Part shown: positions 27,268 through 33,921 of the stretch, one piece after another
Position numbering within the stretch: the first letter of the stretch is position 1
How the letters are laid out: each line of letters opens with the position of its first letter
From: Bacteroidales bacterium
GTDB lineage: Bacteria; Bacteroidota; Bacteroidia; Bacteroidales; UBA3824
Length of the DNA stretch: 47,567 nt
Assembly: GCA_017544805.1 (NCBI GenBank)
Contig: JAFYDK010000038.1
Coordinates: 1 to 47,567, forward strand
Direction of reading: 5' to 3'
The notes under the pieces: generated by a model
The model's input: the letters and a program-made list of their open reading frames with translations, nothing else
Databases searched by the model: none
Told to the model about the DNA's origin: nothing
Made by a program: the position numbers and the translations under genes

Positions 27268-27900
27268 TCAGATTAATTCCAAGAGTTTTTTCATCTCTGA
27301 TACTTTGAATTGACCGGGAGCAGTTTCATTACCCTCATCAGGAGCAAGATATGTTATCGGTGAACCGCATTTTAGACACGCAACTCGCGTTATTTTGCCT
27401 AATTCGCCCATGCCGAAAGCAACAATGTTTTCGTCTAAGGTATATAGCGACAATAATTTAGCATTGTCCTCAGGGAAATTTACTTTACAAGCAAGTTTCA
27501 CGCAATCCGCACCGTAATTTATGCACGTCCTAATAATAGAATGAAGTTCCTCTAAATCAGGTGTTTCCTCAAAATTATGATACGAAATTATTAGTTTGCA
27601 AGAAGAGTTTTTGCAAGCGTTTTTCAACCTTTGAGCAATTTCTTCTCCTCGTTCAATTTCTGTGTCAATATAATCCGCACCCGATTGAGCTGCCACCTCC
27701 AACATTTTTAAGGATGTTTCTTCGTCAAAAGCACCTTTTCGACACGTTACAATAAAACTTACCGATTTGTCGGAAAGCATTTCAATCATCTCTTGGGTTG
27801 AAGGTTTTACCAAATCGAGCCTCAATTCGGCGTATTTATTGTCGCTGAGTTGCTTACTCGCATTTTCGACTCCTTCAGCCGACAAGCATACGTATAACAT
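27268..27900 (-). CDS. aroD: Type I 3-dehydroquinate dehydratase
   Basis: A 210-residue class I dehydroquinase, catalysing the third step of the shikimate pathway. The active-site histidine H108 lies in SYHNFEETP and the Schiff-base lysine K135 in DCVKLAC. ELRLDLV, VTCRKGAFDE and the substrate loop TAPGQ are also present. Its length is slightly below the usual 220-250. It is the last gene of the operon, two bases after the DAHP synthase-chorismate mutase gene, and is followed by a terminator. Bacteroidota often carry this short type I enzyme. Confidence 0.9.
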   Translation of the reverse strand: MLYVCLSAEGVENASKQLSDNKYAELRLDLVKPSTQEMIEMLSDKSVSFIVTCRKGAFDEETSLKMLEVAAQSGADYIDTEIERGEEIAQRLKNACKNSSCKLIISYHNFEETPDLEELHSIIRTCINYGADCVKLACKVNFPEDNAKLLSLYTLDENIVAFGMGELGKITRVACLKCGSPITYLAPDEGNETAPGQFKVSEMKKLLELI

Positions 27901-27902
27901 AA

Positions 27903-28961
27903 TTATTTTTCGTTAACGATTTGCGACTGAACATTGATACTTGCCTGATGGATTGCTTTGAAAATCGTGTCAATCATCTTTTTGTCGAGATTGTTTTCGT
28001 CAGCGGCCTTGTAATATTTCTCCAAAAGCGAATCCCAACGCTGCTGTTGCAAAACGGTCATGTTGTTAGCCTTTTTGTATTCGCCGATTTTTTCCGAAAT
28101 ACCCATACGTTTTTTGAGCGTTGAAATAATTTCGTTGTCAATTTGGTCGATTTTGAAACGCAACTCGTTCAAGGTTTCCATTGAAGCATTTTCAGGATTT
28201 ACCTTTCTGACAACAAGTTCCGAAAGCATTTGTTTTAAAGCCTCAGGCGTTAATTGCTGTTTTGCGTCTGACCATGCTTTGTCGGGGTTGCAGTGTGATT
28301 CTATCATCAAACCGTCAACGTTGAGGTCAAGAGCCTTTTGAGAAATTTCTTTCAAATATTCACGTTTCCCGGCAATGTGAGACGGGTCGCAAATAATAGG
28401 AAGGTCAGGACGGCGGCGTCTGAGTTCAATCGGCATTTGCCAAATAGGTGCGTTGCGGTAAAGAATTTTCTCGTAACTTGAAAATCCACGGTGAATTACG
28501 CCAATGTTTGTAAGTCCCGCTGCTTCAAGCCTTTCGATTGCGCCGAGCCAAAGTTCAACATCGGGGTTGACGGGGTTTTTTACCAAAACGGGAATGTTAC
28601 AGCCTCTTAAACCGTCAGCAATTTCTTGCATTACAAACGGGTTTGCTGACGAGCGTGCGCCAATCCACAAAATGTCAACACCGCCACGGATAGCGTCCCA
28701 AACGTGCTTTGAATTAGCAACTTCAACGGCGGTAAACATTCCGGTCTCTTTTTTTACTTGTCTTAACCATTCAAGACCGATTTCGCCAACGCCTTCAAAA
28801 TTGCCCGGACGTGTGCGAGGTTTCCAAATACCGGCGCGGAAAACTTTTATACCGTTAGCGGCTAATTGTTTTGCAGTATCAAGTGTTTGTTCTAAGGTTT
28901 CAGCAGAGCAAGGACCTGCAATTATCCATGGCTTGTCGCCGAAAATTTCTTTAAATTCCAT
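27903..28961 (-). CDS. DAHP synthase-chorismate mutase fusion
   Basis: A 352-residue bifunctional enzyme. Residues 1-255 form a 3-deoxy-7-phosphoheptulonate synthase of the KDOPS-like type: GPCSAET, FRAGIWKPRTRPGNFEG, WIGARSS, VLVKNPVNPD, ICDPSHIAGKRE. Residues about 262-352 form an AroQ-class chorismate mutase (LNELRFKIDQIDNEIISTLKKRM). DAHP synthase commits carbon to aromatic synthesis and chorismate mutase makes prephenate, so one polypeptide controls both the start and the Phe/Tyr branch. In fusions of this type the mutase domain can also mediate feedback inhibition by prephenate or chorismate. It starts 4 bases after the tyrA stop. Confidence 0.93.
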   Translation of the reverse strand: MEFKEIFGDKPWIIAGPCSAETLEQTLDTAKQLAANGIKVFRAGIWKPRTRPGNFEGVGEIGLEWLRQVKKETGMFTAVEVANSKHVWDAIRGGVDILWIGARSSANPFVMQEIADGLRGCNIPVLVKNPVNPDVELWLGAIERLEAAGLTNIGVIHRGFSSYEKILYRNAPIWQMPIELRRRRPDLPIICDPSHIAGKREYLKEISQKALDLNVDGLMIESHCNPDKAWSDAKQQLTPEALKQMLSELVVRKVNPENASMETLNELRFKIDQIDNEIISTLKKRMGISEKIGEYKKANNMTVLQQQRWDSLLEKYYKAADENNLDKKMIDTIFKAIHQASINVQSQIVNEK

Positions 28962-28965
28962 TTTT

Positions 28966-29820
28966 TTATTTCTTTAATGTCCTTTTAATTTTGTTTGCGT
29001 TGAAAATATAATCGTAAAGTCCTTCATAATCATCTTTTTCCATCAAGTTTTTAAAATCTTGAAGTTTTTCGATGTAAGTATTTAGGACAGTCATAACGTT
29101 TTCTTTGTTGTCTTTGAAAATTGGTGTCCACATATCGGGACTTGATTTTGCAATTCTGACAGTGCTGTTGAAACCGCCCGAAGCAAGGTTGAAAATATTT
29201 TTTTCATTTTTCTCTTTTTCGAGGACTGTCAGCGCCAAAGCAAACGAGCAAACGTGCGGCATGTGCGAAACGTAAGCCACGTGAATGTCATGATTATACG
29301 AGTTGAAAAACATCGGGTTCATGTTGAGATTATCTTCAAACATTTTTCTGATAACGCCGACTGCTTCTTCGCTGCTGTCTTCAACATCGCAAAGGATAAC
29401 GGCTTTACCGTCAAACATTCCTGAAATTGCCGACCACGGTCCTGAATTTTCCGTTCCCGCCATCGGGTGACAAGCCACATAACGTTTTCTGTTAGTGTGA
29501 TATTTTACTCGTTCGCAAATTGTTCCTTTTGTGCTGGCAACGTCAATAACTATTTGATTATCAGAAATTTTGTCCAAAATTCCCGGCAGAATTTTTATAA
29601 CTGCGCTCACGGGGACAGCAATTATAATAATGTCAGAGCCTAAAATTGCGTCTTCAATCGAAGAGGCCTCTTCGTCAATGATTCCGACTTGTTTTGCGTA
29701 AGAAGTGTGAACGGGGTCTTTGTCAAAACCTTTAACATGGTCAGTGAACTTTCTGTTTTTGAGGTCGATAGCGAGCGAGCCGCCTAAAAGACCAAGTCCT
29801 ATTATTGAAATTTTTTTCAT
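28966..29820 (-). CDS. tyrA: Prephenate dehydrogenase
   Basis: A 284-residue NAD(P)-dependent enzyme that oxidatively decarboxylates prephenate to 4-hydroxyphenylpyruvate for tyrosine synthesis. The N-terminal Rossmann motif is IIGLGLLGGSLA. Family signatures IIAVPVSA, DVASTKGT, CHPMAGTENSGP (catalytic His) and SHMPHVCSFALAL follow. There is no C-terminal ACT domain, so allosteric control would have to come from elsewhere. It is separated from pheA by a 56-base AT-rich repeat tract. Confidence 0.93.
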   Translation of the reverse strand: MKKISIIGLGLLGGSLAIDLKNRKFTDHVKGFDKDPVHTSYAKQVGIIDEEASSIEDAILGSDIIIIAVPVSAVIKILPGILDKISDNQIVIDVASTKGTICERVKYHTNRKRYVACHPMAGTENSGPWSAISGMFDGKAVILCDVEDSSEEAVGVIRKMFEDNLNMNPMFFNSYNHDIHVAYVSHMPHVCSFALALTVLEKEKNEKNIFNLASGGFNSTVRIAKSSPDMWTPIFKDNKENVMTVLNTYIEKLQDFKNLMEKDDYEGLYDYIFNANKIKRTLKK

Positions 29821-29876: not shown

Positions 29877-30725
29877 TTAATTATTGTGAACTTCCCTCCA
29901 TGATTGATAGCCTTCTTTGTATTCTCCGAGAATACTCAAATCTCTTAAAAGCGGGCGTATGGCGGTCAGCATATTTTTATAACGCATTATGTCTTTGAAC
30001 TTTACGTCAATATAAAACATATAGTTCATTGGTTGTCCCATTAGCGGCATAGATTCGATTTTGGTTAAATCCACATCATAAATCGAAATAATTGAAAGTA
30101 TTTTTGAAAGACTGCCTTGTTCGTTTTCGAGAACGATATTCAGCGATGCCTTGTCGTAAGTACTTGGATTTTCTTCGTTTTTGGGCCTTATTATAACAAA
30201 ACGAGTGTAGTTTCTTGAATTTGTTTCGATACCGGGTGCGAGAATTTCGAGATTGTTGAGTTCGATAGCATAATCGCTGCCCACTGCGCCTATTGTTGTT
30301 GATTGAGTTTGAGCCACTTCCCTCAAACCGACAGCGGTGCTTGCACATTCCACAAGTTTGATATGCGGATATTTTCTGAAAAACTGCCGTGTCTGATTGA
30401 TAGCCATGTAATGACTATGAACCTCTTTCAAATCTTCAATTTTAACACCTTTGTTAGCGGCTAAGTTTTGTTTGATGCGGATAAAAATTTCGCCGCAGAT
30501 TTTTACGTCGTTTTTTCTGATGAGTTCGAGATTAACGTTGATAGTCCCTGACAATGCGTTTTCGATAGCGATAACACCGTAAGCGGTTTCGTAATTAGCA
30601 ACGCTTTCCACAACGTCCTCAAACGTCAGTTTTTCAACAATTTCCAAATCGTTGCGGTCTTCGAAATATTTCCGTGCCGCAATTTCGTGAAATGCACCTT
30701 TCACGCCTTGAATTGCTACTTTCAT
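29877..30725 (-). CDS. pheA: Prephenate dehydratase
   Basis: A 282-residue monofunctional enzyme converting prephenate to phenylpyruvate. The catalytic region contains GVKGAFHEIAA, VIAIENALSGTI and the NYTRFVII Thr-Arg-Phe motif. The ACT domain begins near residue 195 (LNIVLENEQGSLSKIL) and contains KIESMPLMG, where the usual ESRP is altered to ESMP, which may affect Phe binding. It is the first structural gene of the aromatic operon, 17 bases after the attenuator T-run. The ATG is at 30723-30725. Confidence 0.93.
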   Translation of the reverse strand: MKVAIQGVKGAFHEIAARKYFEDRNDLEIVEKLTFEDVVESVANYETAYGVIAIENALSGTINVNLELIRKNDVKICGEIFIRIKQNLAANKGVKIEDLKEVHSHYMAINQTRQFFRKYPHIKLVECASTAVGLREVAQTQSTTIGAVGSDYAIELNNLEILAPGIETNSRNYTRFVIIRPKNEENPSTYDKASLNIVLENEQGSLSKILSIISIYDVDLTKIESMPLMGQPMNYMFYIDVKFKDIMRYKNMLTAIRPLLRDLSILGEYKEGYQSWREVHNN

Positions 30726-30741
30726 AATTATTTTTTATAAT

Positions 30742-30780
30742 AAAAAAAGCCTCAACCGTTTTTTTTAACAGGTGAGGCTC
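30742..30780 (-). terminator. Attenuator terminator upstream of pheA
   Basis: In the transcript GCCTCACC (30778-30771) pairs with GGTTGAGGC (30757-30749, one bulge), followed by seven U (30748-30742). It lies between the leader peptide stop and pheA. Its 5' arm GCCTCACCT (30778-30770) can pair instead with AGGTGGGGC (30831-30823) in the last leader codons, eight Watson-Crick pairs plus one G-U. That alternative pairing would form the antiterminator. Confidence 0.85.
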
Positions 30781-30817
30781 TAAATAATTTTAAGTTATTT
30801 TACTTTACGCAAAAAAA

Positions 30818-30889
30818 TTACCGCCCCACCTTATTGCTAAAGTAGAAATAAAAGGCGTAAAAATAATATGCGTTAGAGTTAATAACCAT
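30818..30889 (-). CDS. Phe/Tyr-rich leader peptide of the aromatic operon
   Basis: A 23-codon open frame, ATG 30889-30887 to TAA 30820-30818. Residues 7-17 read AYYFYAFYFYF, so nine of the ten codons 8-17 are Tyr (5) or Phe (4). It starts about 30 bases after the predicted transcription start and is followed by a rho-independent terminator just before pheA. This is the architecture of a classical pheL-type leader whose translation senses charged tRNA-Phe and tRNA-Tyr. A ribosome stalled in codons 8-17 would leave the antiterminator segment (30831-30823) free. A ribosome reaching the stop codon would cover it and allow termination. The peptide itself probably has no other role. Confidence 0.85.
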   Translation of the reverse strand: MVINSNAYYFYAFYFYFSNKVGR

Positions 30890-30924
30890 TTCTTTCTAAA
30901 AACTAATCTTTTTACTATGCGAGG

Positions 30925-30955
30925 CAAAGTTATAGTATTTTTCGACTGCTGCAAA
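30925..30955 (-). promoter_or_regulatory. Promoter of the leader-pheA-tyrA-aroG/CM-aroD operon
   Basis: On the minus strand TTTG (30955-30952), a 19-base spacer and TAACTTTG (30932-30925) match the consensus exactly. Transcription should begin near 30918, about 30 bases before the leader peptide ATG. Confidence 0.85.
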
Positions 30956-31038: not shown

Positions 31039-33921
31039 TTACAATAAATTTAGAATTTCGTTTTTCAAAATAAAAGTTTCTGCCAAATCGGATTTTTTTT
31101 GTTGATAAAGTTGAATTTTTTCCTCAATAGTATCCTTTGAAATAAAACGATAAACCATCACGGAATTTTTTTGTCCCATACGGTGCGCCCTTGCAACAGC
31201 CTGAGCCTCAACAGCAGGATTCCACCACGGATCGATTATAAAAACATAATCCGCTTTTGTTAAATTCAAACCCGTGCCGCCCGCTTTCATCGAAATCAAA
31301 AACACGGGAACGTCATTTTCATTAAATTTTTTCACGACGTTTTCTCGGTTTTGAGTTCCACCTGTCAAAAGTACAAAATCAATATCCAAGGCTTTCAAAT
31401 TCTCTGCAACAAGATTCAAATGTTTTACGAATGAGGAAAAAATCAAAACCTTATGACCTTGAGATACAACATTTTGAACGTATGACATTATTTGAGAAGT
31501 CTTGCCCGAAGTCTCCTCGCAGCCTTCGTCCATGGTCAAAAGCGGCGAACAAGCAAGCTGTCTCAACTGAGTCAAAGCCTGCAAAACCATAACGGAAGAT
31601 TTTTCAAAACTATCCGTTTCCATAATGTCAAGAATAGAATTTCTGACTTTCGATTTTTCCTTTTCATAAAGTTCTTTTTGCTTTTCGGACATTTCGCAAT
31701 ACACAATTTGCTCAACTAATTCAGGCAAATCGCTCAAAACCTGTTCTTTGGTTCTGCGCAAAATAAAAGGCTTAATCTGCGATAAAAGTTTTTCTGAACG
31801 TTCGGCATCACCGTTTTTTTCAATCGGGAAAACATAATGTCTTTTGAAACTTTCAAGACTGCCGAGAAGTCCCTGATTTAAGAAATTTATTTGACTCCAA
31901 AGGTCTGTAAGAGAATTTTCAACGGGTGTTCCTGTTAGTGTAAGTCTATGATAACAAGTAAGTTGCATAAGACTTTGATAAGTTTTTGACGATGGATTTT
32001 TTATTATCTGGCTTTCGTCCAAAATTATATAATTAAAACGCTTTTTGCTCAAAAGTTCAACATCGTTTCTAAGAGTTCCGTAACCCGCAATTATCAAATC
32101 ATAAAGAGGAAAAGCCTTAATCATTTCCTGACGGTTTTGACCCGTAAATTCAAGGATTTTCATATCGGGAACAAACTTTTTCGCCTCATTTTTCCAATTG
32201 TAAATGAGCGATTTAGGTGCAAACAAGAGCGAAGGAATTTTCTCCGAAAAATCAAACAATCCGTCCTTGAAACCCTCGCCGCTGTTCATTTTGCTCTCGC
32301 TCAAAAGCGATAACGTACAAAGCGTTTTTCCCAACCCCATATCATCGGCAAGACAAGCTCCGAAACCGTGTTTCTGCATCATTTTCAACCAGTTGAAAGC
32401 CGTAATCTGATACGGACGAAGTACGGCATTAACGTTTTGCGGCTTATCCGAAGGAAGTTTCGTTAAATCCGTCAAATCCTCATAAATATCTGATAGTCTT
32501 TTATTTAAACTTTCCTCAGAGGACAATCCGCTTATAAGTTGAAACTGAAAATTTTTAAGCCTCACACTTGAGTTCTCTTTATTAACAACACCTGTCAAGA
32601 AAACGGCTTTATATTTTTCAAACCACTCTTCCGGCAAGACAACAACTTCGCCATTAGGCAGTTGAAACTCACGTATATTATTGAGAATATGATATTTAAG
32701 CGATGTAAAGGGAAATGCAAAATTCTCAAGTTGAACCATAATATAAACATCAAACCAATCTTGAGAACTTGTAATTTTGGTATCCAAAGAGATTTTTCCC
32801 GTATAATAATTTTTGACTTTTTCGGATTGTTCGACGATGATTCCGTGTTGAAGAAGTCTTTCTCGGTTTTCGTTCAGAGCATTGACAGCAAACGCATTCT
32901 GAACTACAAGATCGGGAGTTTGCGTTTTCAAAGTGTAAATTCCCTCTGAAATTTTGTCCGGAAAAATCTCATCAACGGCAGTTTCGATGTCCGCCTCAAA
33001 CTGCAAATCTCTTTTCAAACGGCTAAAATAAAATCCGCCTTTGTCATCGGTAAAAAATTTTACGATGATTTTGTTCGGTGAATTTATCTTGAAATTGATT
33101 TCGTTGTATCTAAAATAAAGTTGAAAAACGGTCATTCCCGTTAAATCCTTTTCCAACGACAAAACGGCTTGAGGCAAAACCTTTTCGTCATAAATTTTAA
33201 AACCCGAATGATGAATTTTTGCACCGGAGGCGATTACGTTTTTAATAAACTTTTCGTAATACTGCTGTTCGGTACGTTTTATTACAGGAATATATTTTTT
33301 TGTAACAAAAGGAATAATTTTTTTAGCATTAACATCATCAAAACCATACAATTTGTTATCAATAATTAAAAAACACGGATTATCCGAGAGCAAATGAACG
33401 GATTTTCCGTAAAAACTTAAATTCTGATTTTTATAACAAGCTGAAAGAAAGTACTTTGTTTCTTCATCGGTACGAAAAAAATTGAAAACAGCCTCGGCAT
33501 TTTCCTTTGTCAGAGAGATTTCGTCCTCCAAGAAAACAGCTTTTTGATTAGTTTCCAAAAAGAACATACGAACATTGTTTTCCCTACAAATTTTTATAAT
33601 TTCAACGATGTTTCTTTCAATAGAAGGGCGAATGTTAAGTTCAAAAAAATTTCTATCCAACTGTTTTAAAAACTGTTGGTTGTCTGAAACCTTCCTATCT
33701 CCGAAAGTTTTTCGGATTTGTGTTTCCGAGTATTTTTCCGAAATTTTAACGATTCTCTGCTGAAAATCAGAATATTTCTCAGGATTTTTATCAACATCAT
33801 CTTTTGTAACAGTATTCATAACGTAAAAAAAATCATGCGAGGAATCCTCCGAAACAATACACGGCATTATAATCCAACCGAAAACTCTGTGGTTTCTTAC
33901 GGCAGCGATAAAATTTTTCAT
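31039..33921 (-). CDS. SNF2-family DEAD/DEAH helicase
   Basis: A 960-residue protein. The C-terminal half (about 500-960) is a SNF2/RapA-type ATPase: LRPYQITAFNWLKMM, Walker A DDMGLGKT, FAPKSLIYNW, the DESQ box (variant of DEAH), LTGTPVENS, then the helicase C lobe with VLIFSSF, AGGTGLNLT and QAVARAHRMGQ (motif VI arginine fingers). The first 500 residues are less conserved, resembling the N-terminal region of bacterial SNF2 proteins. There is no visible SWIM zinc motif. Such proteins remodel protein-DNA complexes or recycle RNA polymerase; the specific role is unknown. It has its own promoter and is monocistronic. Confidence 0.9.
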   Translation of the reverse strand: MKNFIAAVRNHRVFGWIIMPCIVSEDSSHDFFYVMNTVTKDDVDKNPEKYSDFQQRIVKISEKYSETQIRKTFGDRKVSDNQQFLKQLDRNFFELNIRPSIERNIVEIIKICRENNVRMFFLETNQKAVFLEDEISLTKENAEAVFNFFRTDEETKYFLSACYKNQNLSFYGKSVHLLSDNPCFLIIDNKLYGFDDVNAKKIIPFVTKKYIPVIKRTEQQYYEKFIKNVIASGAKIHHSGFKIYDEKVLPQAVLSLEKDLTGMTVFQLYFRYNEINFKINSPNKIIVKFFTDDKGGFYFSRLKRDLQFEADIETAVDEIFPDKISEGIYTLKTQTPDLVVQNAFAVNALNENRERLLQHGIIVEQSEKVKNYYTGKISLDTKITSSQDWFDVYIMVQLENFAFPFTSLKYHILNNIREFQLPNGEVVVLPEEWFEKYKAVFLTGVVNKENSSVRLKNFQFQLISGLSSEESLNKRLSDIYEDLTDLTKLPSDKPQNVNAVLRPYQITAFNWLKMMQKHGFGACLADDMGLGKTLCTLSLLSESKMNSGEGFKDGLFDFSEKIPSLLFAPKSLIYNWKNEAKKFVPDMKILEFTGQNRQEMIKAFPLYDLIIAGYGTLRNDVELLSKKRFNYIILDESQIIKNPSSKTYQSLMQLTCYHRLTLTGTPVENSLTDLWSQINFLNQGLLGSLESFKRHYVFPIEKNGDAERSEKLLSQIKPFILRRTKEQVLSDLPELVEQIVYCEMSEKQKELYEKEKSKVRNSILDIMETDSFEKSSVMVLQALTQLRQLACSPLLTMDEGCEETSGKTSQIMSYVQNVVSQGHKVLIFSSFVKHLNLVAENLKALDIDFVLLTGGTQNRENVVKKFNENDVPVFLISMKAGGTGLNLTKADYVFIIDPWWNPAVEAQAVARAHRMGQKNSVMVYRFISKDTIEEKIQLYQQKKSDLAETFILKNEILNLL

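Follow-up and report, generated by a model that had tools for sequence, protein, structure and literature searches.

We analysed a 47,567-nucleotide stretch of DNA from a Bacteroidales bacterium (the window), which carries an aromatic amino-acid operon on its minus strand. The operon begins with pheA, which has close relatives in Bacteroidales records from goat and sheep stomach, and continues with tyrA, a DAHP synthase-chorismate mutase fusion and a type I 3-dehydroquinase (Table 1). Directly upstream of pheA, a candidate attenuator spans 30955-30738. Beyond it, on the same strand, a SNF2-family gene ends at 31039.

Table 1 Features of the pheA leader and operon in the window
Feature	Positions	Strand	Details
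Promoter motif, Bacteroidota -33/-7 type	30925..30955	(-)	TTTG 30955-30952, 19-nt spacer, TAACTTTG 30932-30925
Leader peptide frame MVINSNAYYFYAFYFYFSNKVGR, 23 codons	30818..30889	(-)	Stop TAA 30820-30818
Regulatory codons 8-17	30839..30868	(-)	Tyr Tyr Phe Tyr Ala Phe Tyr Phe Tyr Phe
Run/region-2 (1:2) helix	30857-30838 with 30833-30822	(-)	5' strand inside regulatory codons
Region 2, antiterminator 5' strand AGGTGGGGC	30823..30831	(-)	Inside leader codons 20-23
Outer helix P0, 3' strand	30793..30811	(-)	Pairs with leader codons 2-7 (30887-30869); from the fold
Region 3 GCCTCACCT	30770..30778	(-)	Common to antiterminator and terminator 5' arm
Intrinsic terminator	30738..30780	(-)	Hairpin 30780-30747, -16.7 kcal/mol; U tract from 30746
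pheA, prephenate dehydratase, operon gene 1	29877..30725	(-)	Pfam PF00800
tyrA, prephenate dehydrogenase	28966..29820	(-)	Pfam PF02153/PF20463, NF006307
aroF, DAHP synthase-chorismate mutase fusion	27903..28961	(-)	Pfam PF00793 + PF01817
aroD, type I 3-dehydroquinase, last aromatic operon gene	27268..27900	(-)	Pfam PF01487

An earlier note on this DNA, made from the sequence alone, had proposed a leader frame with Tyr/Phe codons at positions 8-17, a terminator before pheA and a 9-bp alternative pairing, all of which we verified on the minus strand. Nine of the ten regulatory codons encode Phe or Tyr, and an equally Phe/Tyr-rich short frame occurred in none of 200 shuffled upstream regions of this locus. 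The predicted peptide matched no Pfam or NCBIfam family at E <= 10, and its 23 residues are short for such profiles. A run of Phe/Tyr codons is not in itself rare in the AT-rich window genome; it is the combination of features and their conservation that exceed chance. Six consecutive TWY triplets had 78 matches in the whole genome, compared with 105 for the reversed pattern, so a pattern search is unfit for finding other leaders.

The same note had also claimed a consensus promoter. A promoter motif is present, but TTTG-N19-TAACTTTG is what we take to be the Bacteroidota -33/-7 motif, not the sigma-70 consensus. Transcription of the leader is expected to start near 30920-30915. Among the 99 Phe/Tyr leaders described below, 65 have the -7 motif TAnnTTTG at most 110 nt upstream (about 7 in shuffles, 11 on the reverse strand), and 33 are preceded by a complete -33/-7 promoter (about 0.3 in shuffles, none on the reverse strand).

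Folding of the leader and the predicted switch

None of 200 shuffles of the window leader RNA folded as well as the real sequence (z -3.8). Regions 2 and 3 can form an antiterminator of 9 bp with one G-U (8-10 bp are predicted at this locus). Since the terminator is always part of the lowest-energy structure once the leader is complete, antitermination must be decided kinetically. We therefore followed the pairing in a stall scan, in which the free RNA was folded with the ribosomal A site on each codon in turn, assuming that the ribosome covers 13 nt past the first A-site base. Before the 3' arm of the terminator is made, 10 antiterminator pairs are available at codons 8-12, 9 at codons 13-15, 8 at codon 16 and 5 at codon 17; from codon 18 onwards, the stop included, none is left. 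The loss of these pairs at codons 17-18 places the predicted switch point at the end of the Phe/Tyr run. The scan agrees with the earlier proposal that stalling within codons 8-17 would expose the antiterminator strand and that completing translation would cover it.

These predictions suggest the following mechanism. When charged tRNA-Phe and tRNA-Tyr are both plentiful, the ribosome would reach the stop codon and cover region 2, and the terminator (3:4) would form. A shortage of Phe or Tyr would stall it in codons 8-17 and open the 1:2 helix. Pairing of the released region 2 with region 3 would then let RNA polymerase continue into pheA. If the leader were not translated, region 2 would be held by the outer helix P0 together with the 1:2 helix, which would favour termination. 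The parts of a leader-peptide attenuator are found together in the window: a short frame with a codon run for an operon product, an intrinsic terminator between the leader and the first gene, and an antiterminator that excludes the terminator and that the stall scan predicts to be freed by a ribosome stalled in the run and masked by one at the stop.

Conservation and co-variation across pheA loci

We scored 122 pheA upstream regions for a short frame in which Phe/Tyr make up at least six of ten codons. The set comprised 35 loci from the order, 48 from the class (two of them also of the order), 21 from other classes and 18 from named contigs. The class and other-class loci were an even draw over the phylum, fetched from part of the matches. 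Excluded were L017, L018 and L030, whose upstream DNA is lost at a contig end, L031-L033, which are the same records as L002-L004, and L129. A Phe/Tyr leader lies upstream of pheA in 99 of the 122 regions, which are loci related by descent, compared with about 3% of shuffles. By sample, the leader was found at 35/35 order loci, 45/48 class loci, 3/21 loci from other classes and 16/18 named contigs; the order and class samples combined give 80/83. The earlier note had named loss of the Tyr/Phe codons among relatives as a refuting result, and its proposal withstood this test. Holders of the leader include contigs of Marinifilaceae, Paludibacteraceae, Saprospiraceae, Crocinitomicaceae, Gilvibacter, Taibaiella and Chitinophagaceae.

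The three leaderless loci of the class sample (L084, L087 and L097) all come from one family, f51, in which L098 keeps the leader. No Phe/Tyr leader was found upstream of pheA on the Capnocytophaga contig L046 or in the pheA upstream region of L035. The L035 gene (L035:5001-5822) is 53% identical to the window pheA, has no aromatic neighbour genes in the stretch examined, and lies on a contig where UGA is translated as Gly (code 25). It appears to have passed from Bacteroidales to a UGA-recoded organism.

In the 16 loci of the window's genus, the Phe/Tyr run is kept through exchanges between F and Y and through wobble changes, and the genus alignment is conserved chiefly at the Phe/Tyr codons and at the pairing partners. 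A terminator separates the leader from pheA in 98 of the 99 leader loci (L096 is the exception). A U tract preceded by a hairpin of -10 kcal/mol or better occurs in 97/99 leaders and in 7/495 shuffles (1.4%). The 5' strand of the antiterminator starts 2-17 nt past the last Phe/Tyr codon in 96/98 loci. When the stall scan was applied to 98 loci, the antiterminator was predicted to form with the ribosome in the run in 97; L023 had none. With the ribosome at the stop, it is lost in 79 of these 97, and at least 4 bp are still possible in 18. Antiterminators of at least 5 bp are common by chance, arising in 74% of shuffles. We dropped this criterion and used pairings of at least 8 bp and partner swapping instead. 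With a mid-run stall, 87/97 loci reach at least 8 bp, compared with 33% of shuffles (L023 left out).

For partner swapping we took 69 loci with differing terminator arms, after a crude dereplication in which arms were compared position by position (L023 and L101 were not used). The mean pairing energy of region 2 is -14.2 kcal/mol with its cognate terminator arm and -8.6 kcal/mol with non-cognate arms, and none of 10,000 permutations matched the real pairing energy. For 17 of the 69 arms the cognate region 2 is the best partner, and for 47 it is among the best tenth. The antiterminator partners thus co-vary, as the earlier note had proposed to check. The helices that would hold region 2 also co-vary over these loci: the centred z is -6.6 for P0, which joins the leader start to the RNA after the stop, and -5.9 for the 1:2 helix, compared with -2.0 and -2.3 for two control pairings that play no part in the model. 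When only the 10 genus loci are taken, both helices are weak (z about -2.2). They are better supported than two further pairings that had been pointed out, TTTACGC/GCGTAAA and TACTTTA/TAAAGTA. Both of these exist in the window but are not conserved, GCGTAAA being confined to the window genome and its sister (G016) among the 16 genus loci.

In the genus alignment, 94.6% of the antiterminator cells pair, compared with 34.8-55.1% in slid versions, and the covariation score exceeds that of 500/500 shuffles. One pair is changed on both sides (U-A to C-G, in five rows). Shuffles equal the real alignment on both-side changes (473/500) and on further pair types (500/500).

Two Phe/Tyr leader modules stand in series at 7 of the 99 loci (L019, L042, L043, L044, L052, L099 and L128). 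Each module ends with a hairpin and a U tract; the first-module hairpins of L043 and L044 are weak (-8.6 kcal/mol). In both modules, the antiterminator pairing is predicted to be free with the ribosome in the run and to fall afterwards. In one module each of L019, L043 and L099, and also in L052, 4-5 bp remain or return when the ribosome is at the stop. In six of the doubles, 11-60 nt separate the first hairpin from the second start codon (11 nt in L044), a distance too short for a second promoter in most of them.

Tyrosine codons and operon content

We counted Tyr, Phe and Trp in 12 codons around the run of the 99 leaders. Phe codons are present in all of them, and Tyr and Phe codons are one base apart, as would suit an attenuator that, like the enterobacterial pheA leader, senses Phe only, its Tyr codons being a by-product of the similarity between TTT and TAT. 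We consider this unlikely. The number of Tyr codons is zero in 3 leaders and at least two in 96, and never one; Tyr equals or outnumbers Phe in all 16 leaders of the genus; and the Tyr-less leaders are found exactly where pheA is solitary.

This last point comes from the DNA downstream of pheA at every one of the 19 order loci that lie outside the genus, which was examined with tblastn/BLAST and Pfam. Three of the 19 have a solitary pheA, and these are the Tyr-less L029, L121 and L126, a natural experiment in which Tyr codons are missing beside a lone pheA. No aromatic gene was detected by tblastn in the 7 kb behind their pheA. What follows instead is an opposite-strand C25 peptidase, opposite-strand frames, or an ilvD and TPP-enzyme pair about 210 nt on; a large opposite-strand frame behind one of the three had no Pfam match. 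The 16 Tyr-bearing loci all have DAHP synthase-chorismate mutase downstream, and 15 also have tyrA, which was not detectable by BLAST or Pfam downstream of L123. The association of Tyr codons with operon content over the 19 loci has a Fisher p of 0.001, a value that rests on three Tyr-less cases that may be related. Among 60 further Tyr leaders from the other sets, two run off the contig and 58 have partner genes downstream. The partner is tyrA or DAHP synthase in 45 of the 58 (at least 3.9 kb away in L043) and just a class I/II aminotransferase in the other 13, within the roughly 1.5 kb examined behind pheA.

With Tyr absent where pheA is solitary and present where it has partner genes, the leader codons follow the products of the operon. 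The earlier suggestion that either amino acid could be sensed gains support from these three cases, and Tyr is likely to be sensed beside Phe. Taken comparatively, the leaders are likely to switch the genes on when Phe or Tyr is scarce.

A single Trp codon lies within the counted codons in 22 of the 99 leaders (L048, L075, L091 and others), mostly outside the window's order. A response to the third aromatic amino acid is possible in these.

A structured leader with a terminator and an antiterminator is also common to regulators that work independently of translation by binding a metabolite or a protein (a riboswitch, a T-box or the site of an RNA-binding protein). The 47.6-kb window has no match to a T-box or a known riboswitch and none to any Rfam family at its gathering cut-off, conservation in the genus centres on the Phe/Tyr codons and their pairing partners, and codon content tracks the operon product, all of which makes such a regulator very improbable here. 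Least credible of all is that the hairpin terminates the SNF2-family gene and that the leader frame is fortuitous: that gene does share the strand, and the AT-rich genome has many runs of F/Y triplets, but a promoter motif and the leader frame stand between the gene and the hairpin, the antiterminator partners co-vary, and, among the stretches L001-L051, a SNF2-like neighbour occurs only in the window and its sister (L001, L002 and L031) while leader and terminator persist elsewhere, so the terminator is not that of the SNF2 gene.

We are thus left with high confidence in the prediction that 30955-30738 is a ribosome-controlled transcription attenuator of pheA-tyrA-aroF-aroD that senses both Phe and Tyr. 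Its anatomy, its conservation and co-variation, and the match between Tyr codons and operon content are observed; from these we infer the start of transcription, translation of the leader, stalling and the change in read-through.

Other amino-acid leaders and known systems

Predicted leaders of other amino-acid types were found upstream of other biosynthetic genes. In the window genome (G000), a His leader MITLKLHNGSHFHFHHIHHGNNIVVRF with a terminator and an 8-bp antiterminator (GTGCGGTT/AACCGCAC) precedes hisG on contig C63 (L173). His leaders occur at 43/55 hisG loci and at 0/182 other genes (the partial matches L188, L189, L303 and L304 were left out). A clean antiterminator was not seen at every His leader; z was -1.7 or lower at three of eight tested. 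On contig C94 (L202), a Trp leader MKNFSTYNNWWWRLRNKNS lies upstream of trpE and scores 48.2 bits against Bacteroid-trp, whose cut-off is 49. Its antiterminator strand, CGTGAGA, runs across the UGA stop and has its pairing partner in the terminator loop. Trp leaders occur at 25/42 trpE loci and at 0/195 other genes (L213-L216, L310 and L325-L333 were left out, for reasons that include partial, weak or contig-end matches). When the scan includes the terminator loop, a trp antiterminator pairing is present in most of 20 loci; two of the 20 have no terminator by the rule we applied, and the pairing in L322 is weak. We assign the putative Trp leader of the window genome to the known Bacteroid-trp family.

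Ile/Leu/Val leaders occur at 10/27 ilvD loci and at 5/210 other genes (L244 and L245 left out). Nine of the ten lie outside the window's genus; examples with terminators, such as MLHIILVVILLVISKDARKVCR, come from other families of the order (L217, L218, L225, L242 and others). The tenth, an 11-codon frame 46 nt before ilvD at the genus locus L221, may be due to chance, and we found no convincing ilvD leader in the window's genus. Phe/Tyr leaders occur at 7/133 amino-acid genes other than pheA. Across loci, the codon type of these predicted leaders is specifically matched to the gene downstream. Homoserine dehydrogenase was tried as an attenuated gene and rejected, the best Thr/Ile leader having 5 of 10 codons over 13 loci; at 4 of the 13 the gene is fused and its start lies outside the stretch. 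For the counts of leader type by gene, nine unfused genus loci were kept of 33 rows.

We think it reasonably probable, from the comparative picture, that leader-peptide attenuation is the ancestral control of aromatic synthesis in Bacteroidia. It would act through a dual Phe/Tyr leader, the first with regulatory Tyr, whose codon mix is tuned to the genes of the operon and which is sometimes doubled for one signal, and it would coexist with leaders for His, Trp and branched-chain amino acids. That such control is maintained would imply tight transcription-translation coupling across Bacteroidota. Bacteroidota largely do without Shine-Dalgarno-led initiation. Leader switches work only if the ribosome closely trails RNA polymerase, which makes such coupling in Bacteroidota testable. 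The Phe/Tyr leader is an RNA family without an Rfam model, in which Tyr looks sensed and serial doubles serve one signal.

The enterobacterial pheA leader has a Phe-rich peptide, overlapping 1:2, 2:3 and 3:4 helices and a terminator before pheA. Our leader likewise combines Phe codons, overlapping helices and a terminator before pheA, but it falls below membership of the corresponding family, RF01859 Phe_leader (24.6 bits, cut-off 55, E 0.044). At relaxed settings the whole model (1-125) aligns to 30881-30740 of the window, and two of 13 further loci match it at E <= 0.5 (33.7 and 30.0 bits). Unlike the enterobacterial leader, that of the window also has Tyr codons, tyrA in its operon, a Bacteroidota promoter and an extra outer helix, and some of its relatives have serial double forms.

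Leader-peptide attenuation is not new in Bacteroidota; the Phe/Tyr leader is a variant of it found across the class Bacteroidia. A survey of attenuators from 2004 reportedly names Bacteroidetes/Chlorobi. The earlier note had regarded ribosome-mediated attenuation as established in Proteobacteria, a scope too narrow in view of RF01692 and of the relevant passage in PMC9723704. The first of these, Bacteroid-trp, is presented in the part of Weinberg et al. 2010 concerned as a cis-regulator in Bacteroidetes (PMC2864571). Both it and the Phe/Tyr leader are leader-peptide attenuators of aromatic amino-acid operons in Bacteroidota. Bacteroid-trp differs in that it senses Trp and precedes trpE; at the trpE loci examined here, the antiterminator pairs with the terminator loop plus the base of the arm. 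It has no match in the window (cut-off 49 bits), where the Phe/Tyr leader has no Trp codon.

Closest to our locus is a 2021 study of Flavobacterium psychrophilum, whose passage on 5' elements reports structured ones before pheA and hisG that are kept in Flavobacteriaceae without an Rfam match, together with clues to leader-peptide attenuation before amino-acid operons (PMC9723704). The window leader resembles these elements in being structured, in lying upstream of the same gene and in having no Rfam family; that passage mentions no peptide, Tyr codons, covariation or reach past Flavobacteriaceae (PMC9723704). In the literature on Bacteroidota leaders, we found no Phe/Tyr leader described beyond PMC9723704, and no precedent for the likely sensing of Tyr, for codon tuning or for a serial form with one signal; Tyr leaders of other phyla were outside the scope of this search. 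A map of B. thetaiotaomicron mentions, in the section concerned, sORFs reminiscent of leader peptides (PMC7366714). For the serial doubles, the nearest parallel is Salmonella mgtCBR, where, according to the passage on its leader, tandem attenuating frames respond to different signals, ATP and proline (PMC3641672). The seven pheA loci similarly have two attenuating frames in series. The mgtCBR frames as described there differ in signal (PMC3641672), whereas Phe/Tyr codons are found in both pheA modules, each of which is followed by a hairpin of its own.
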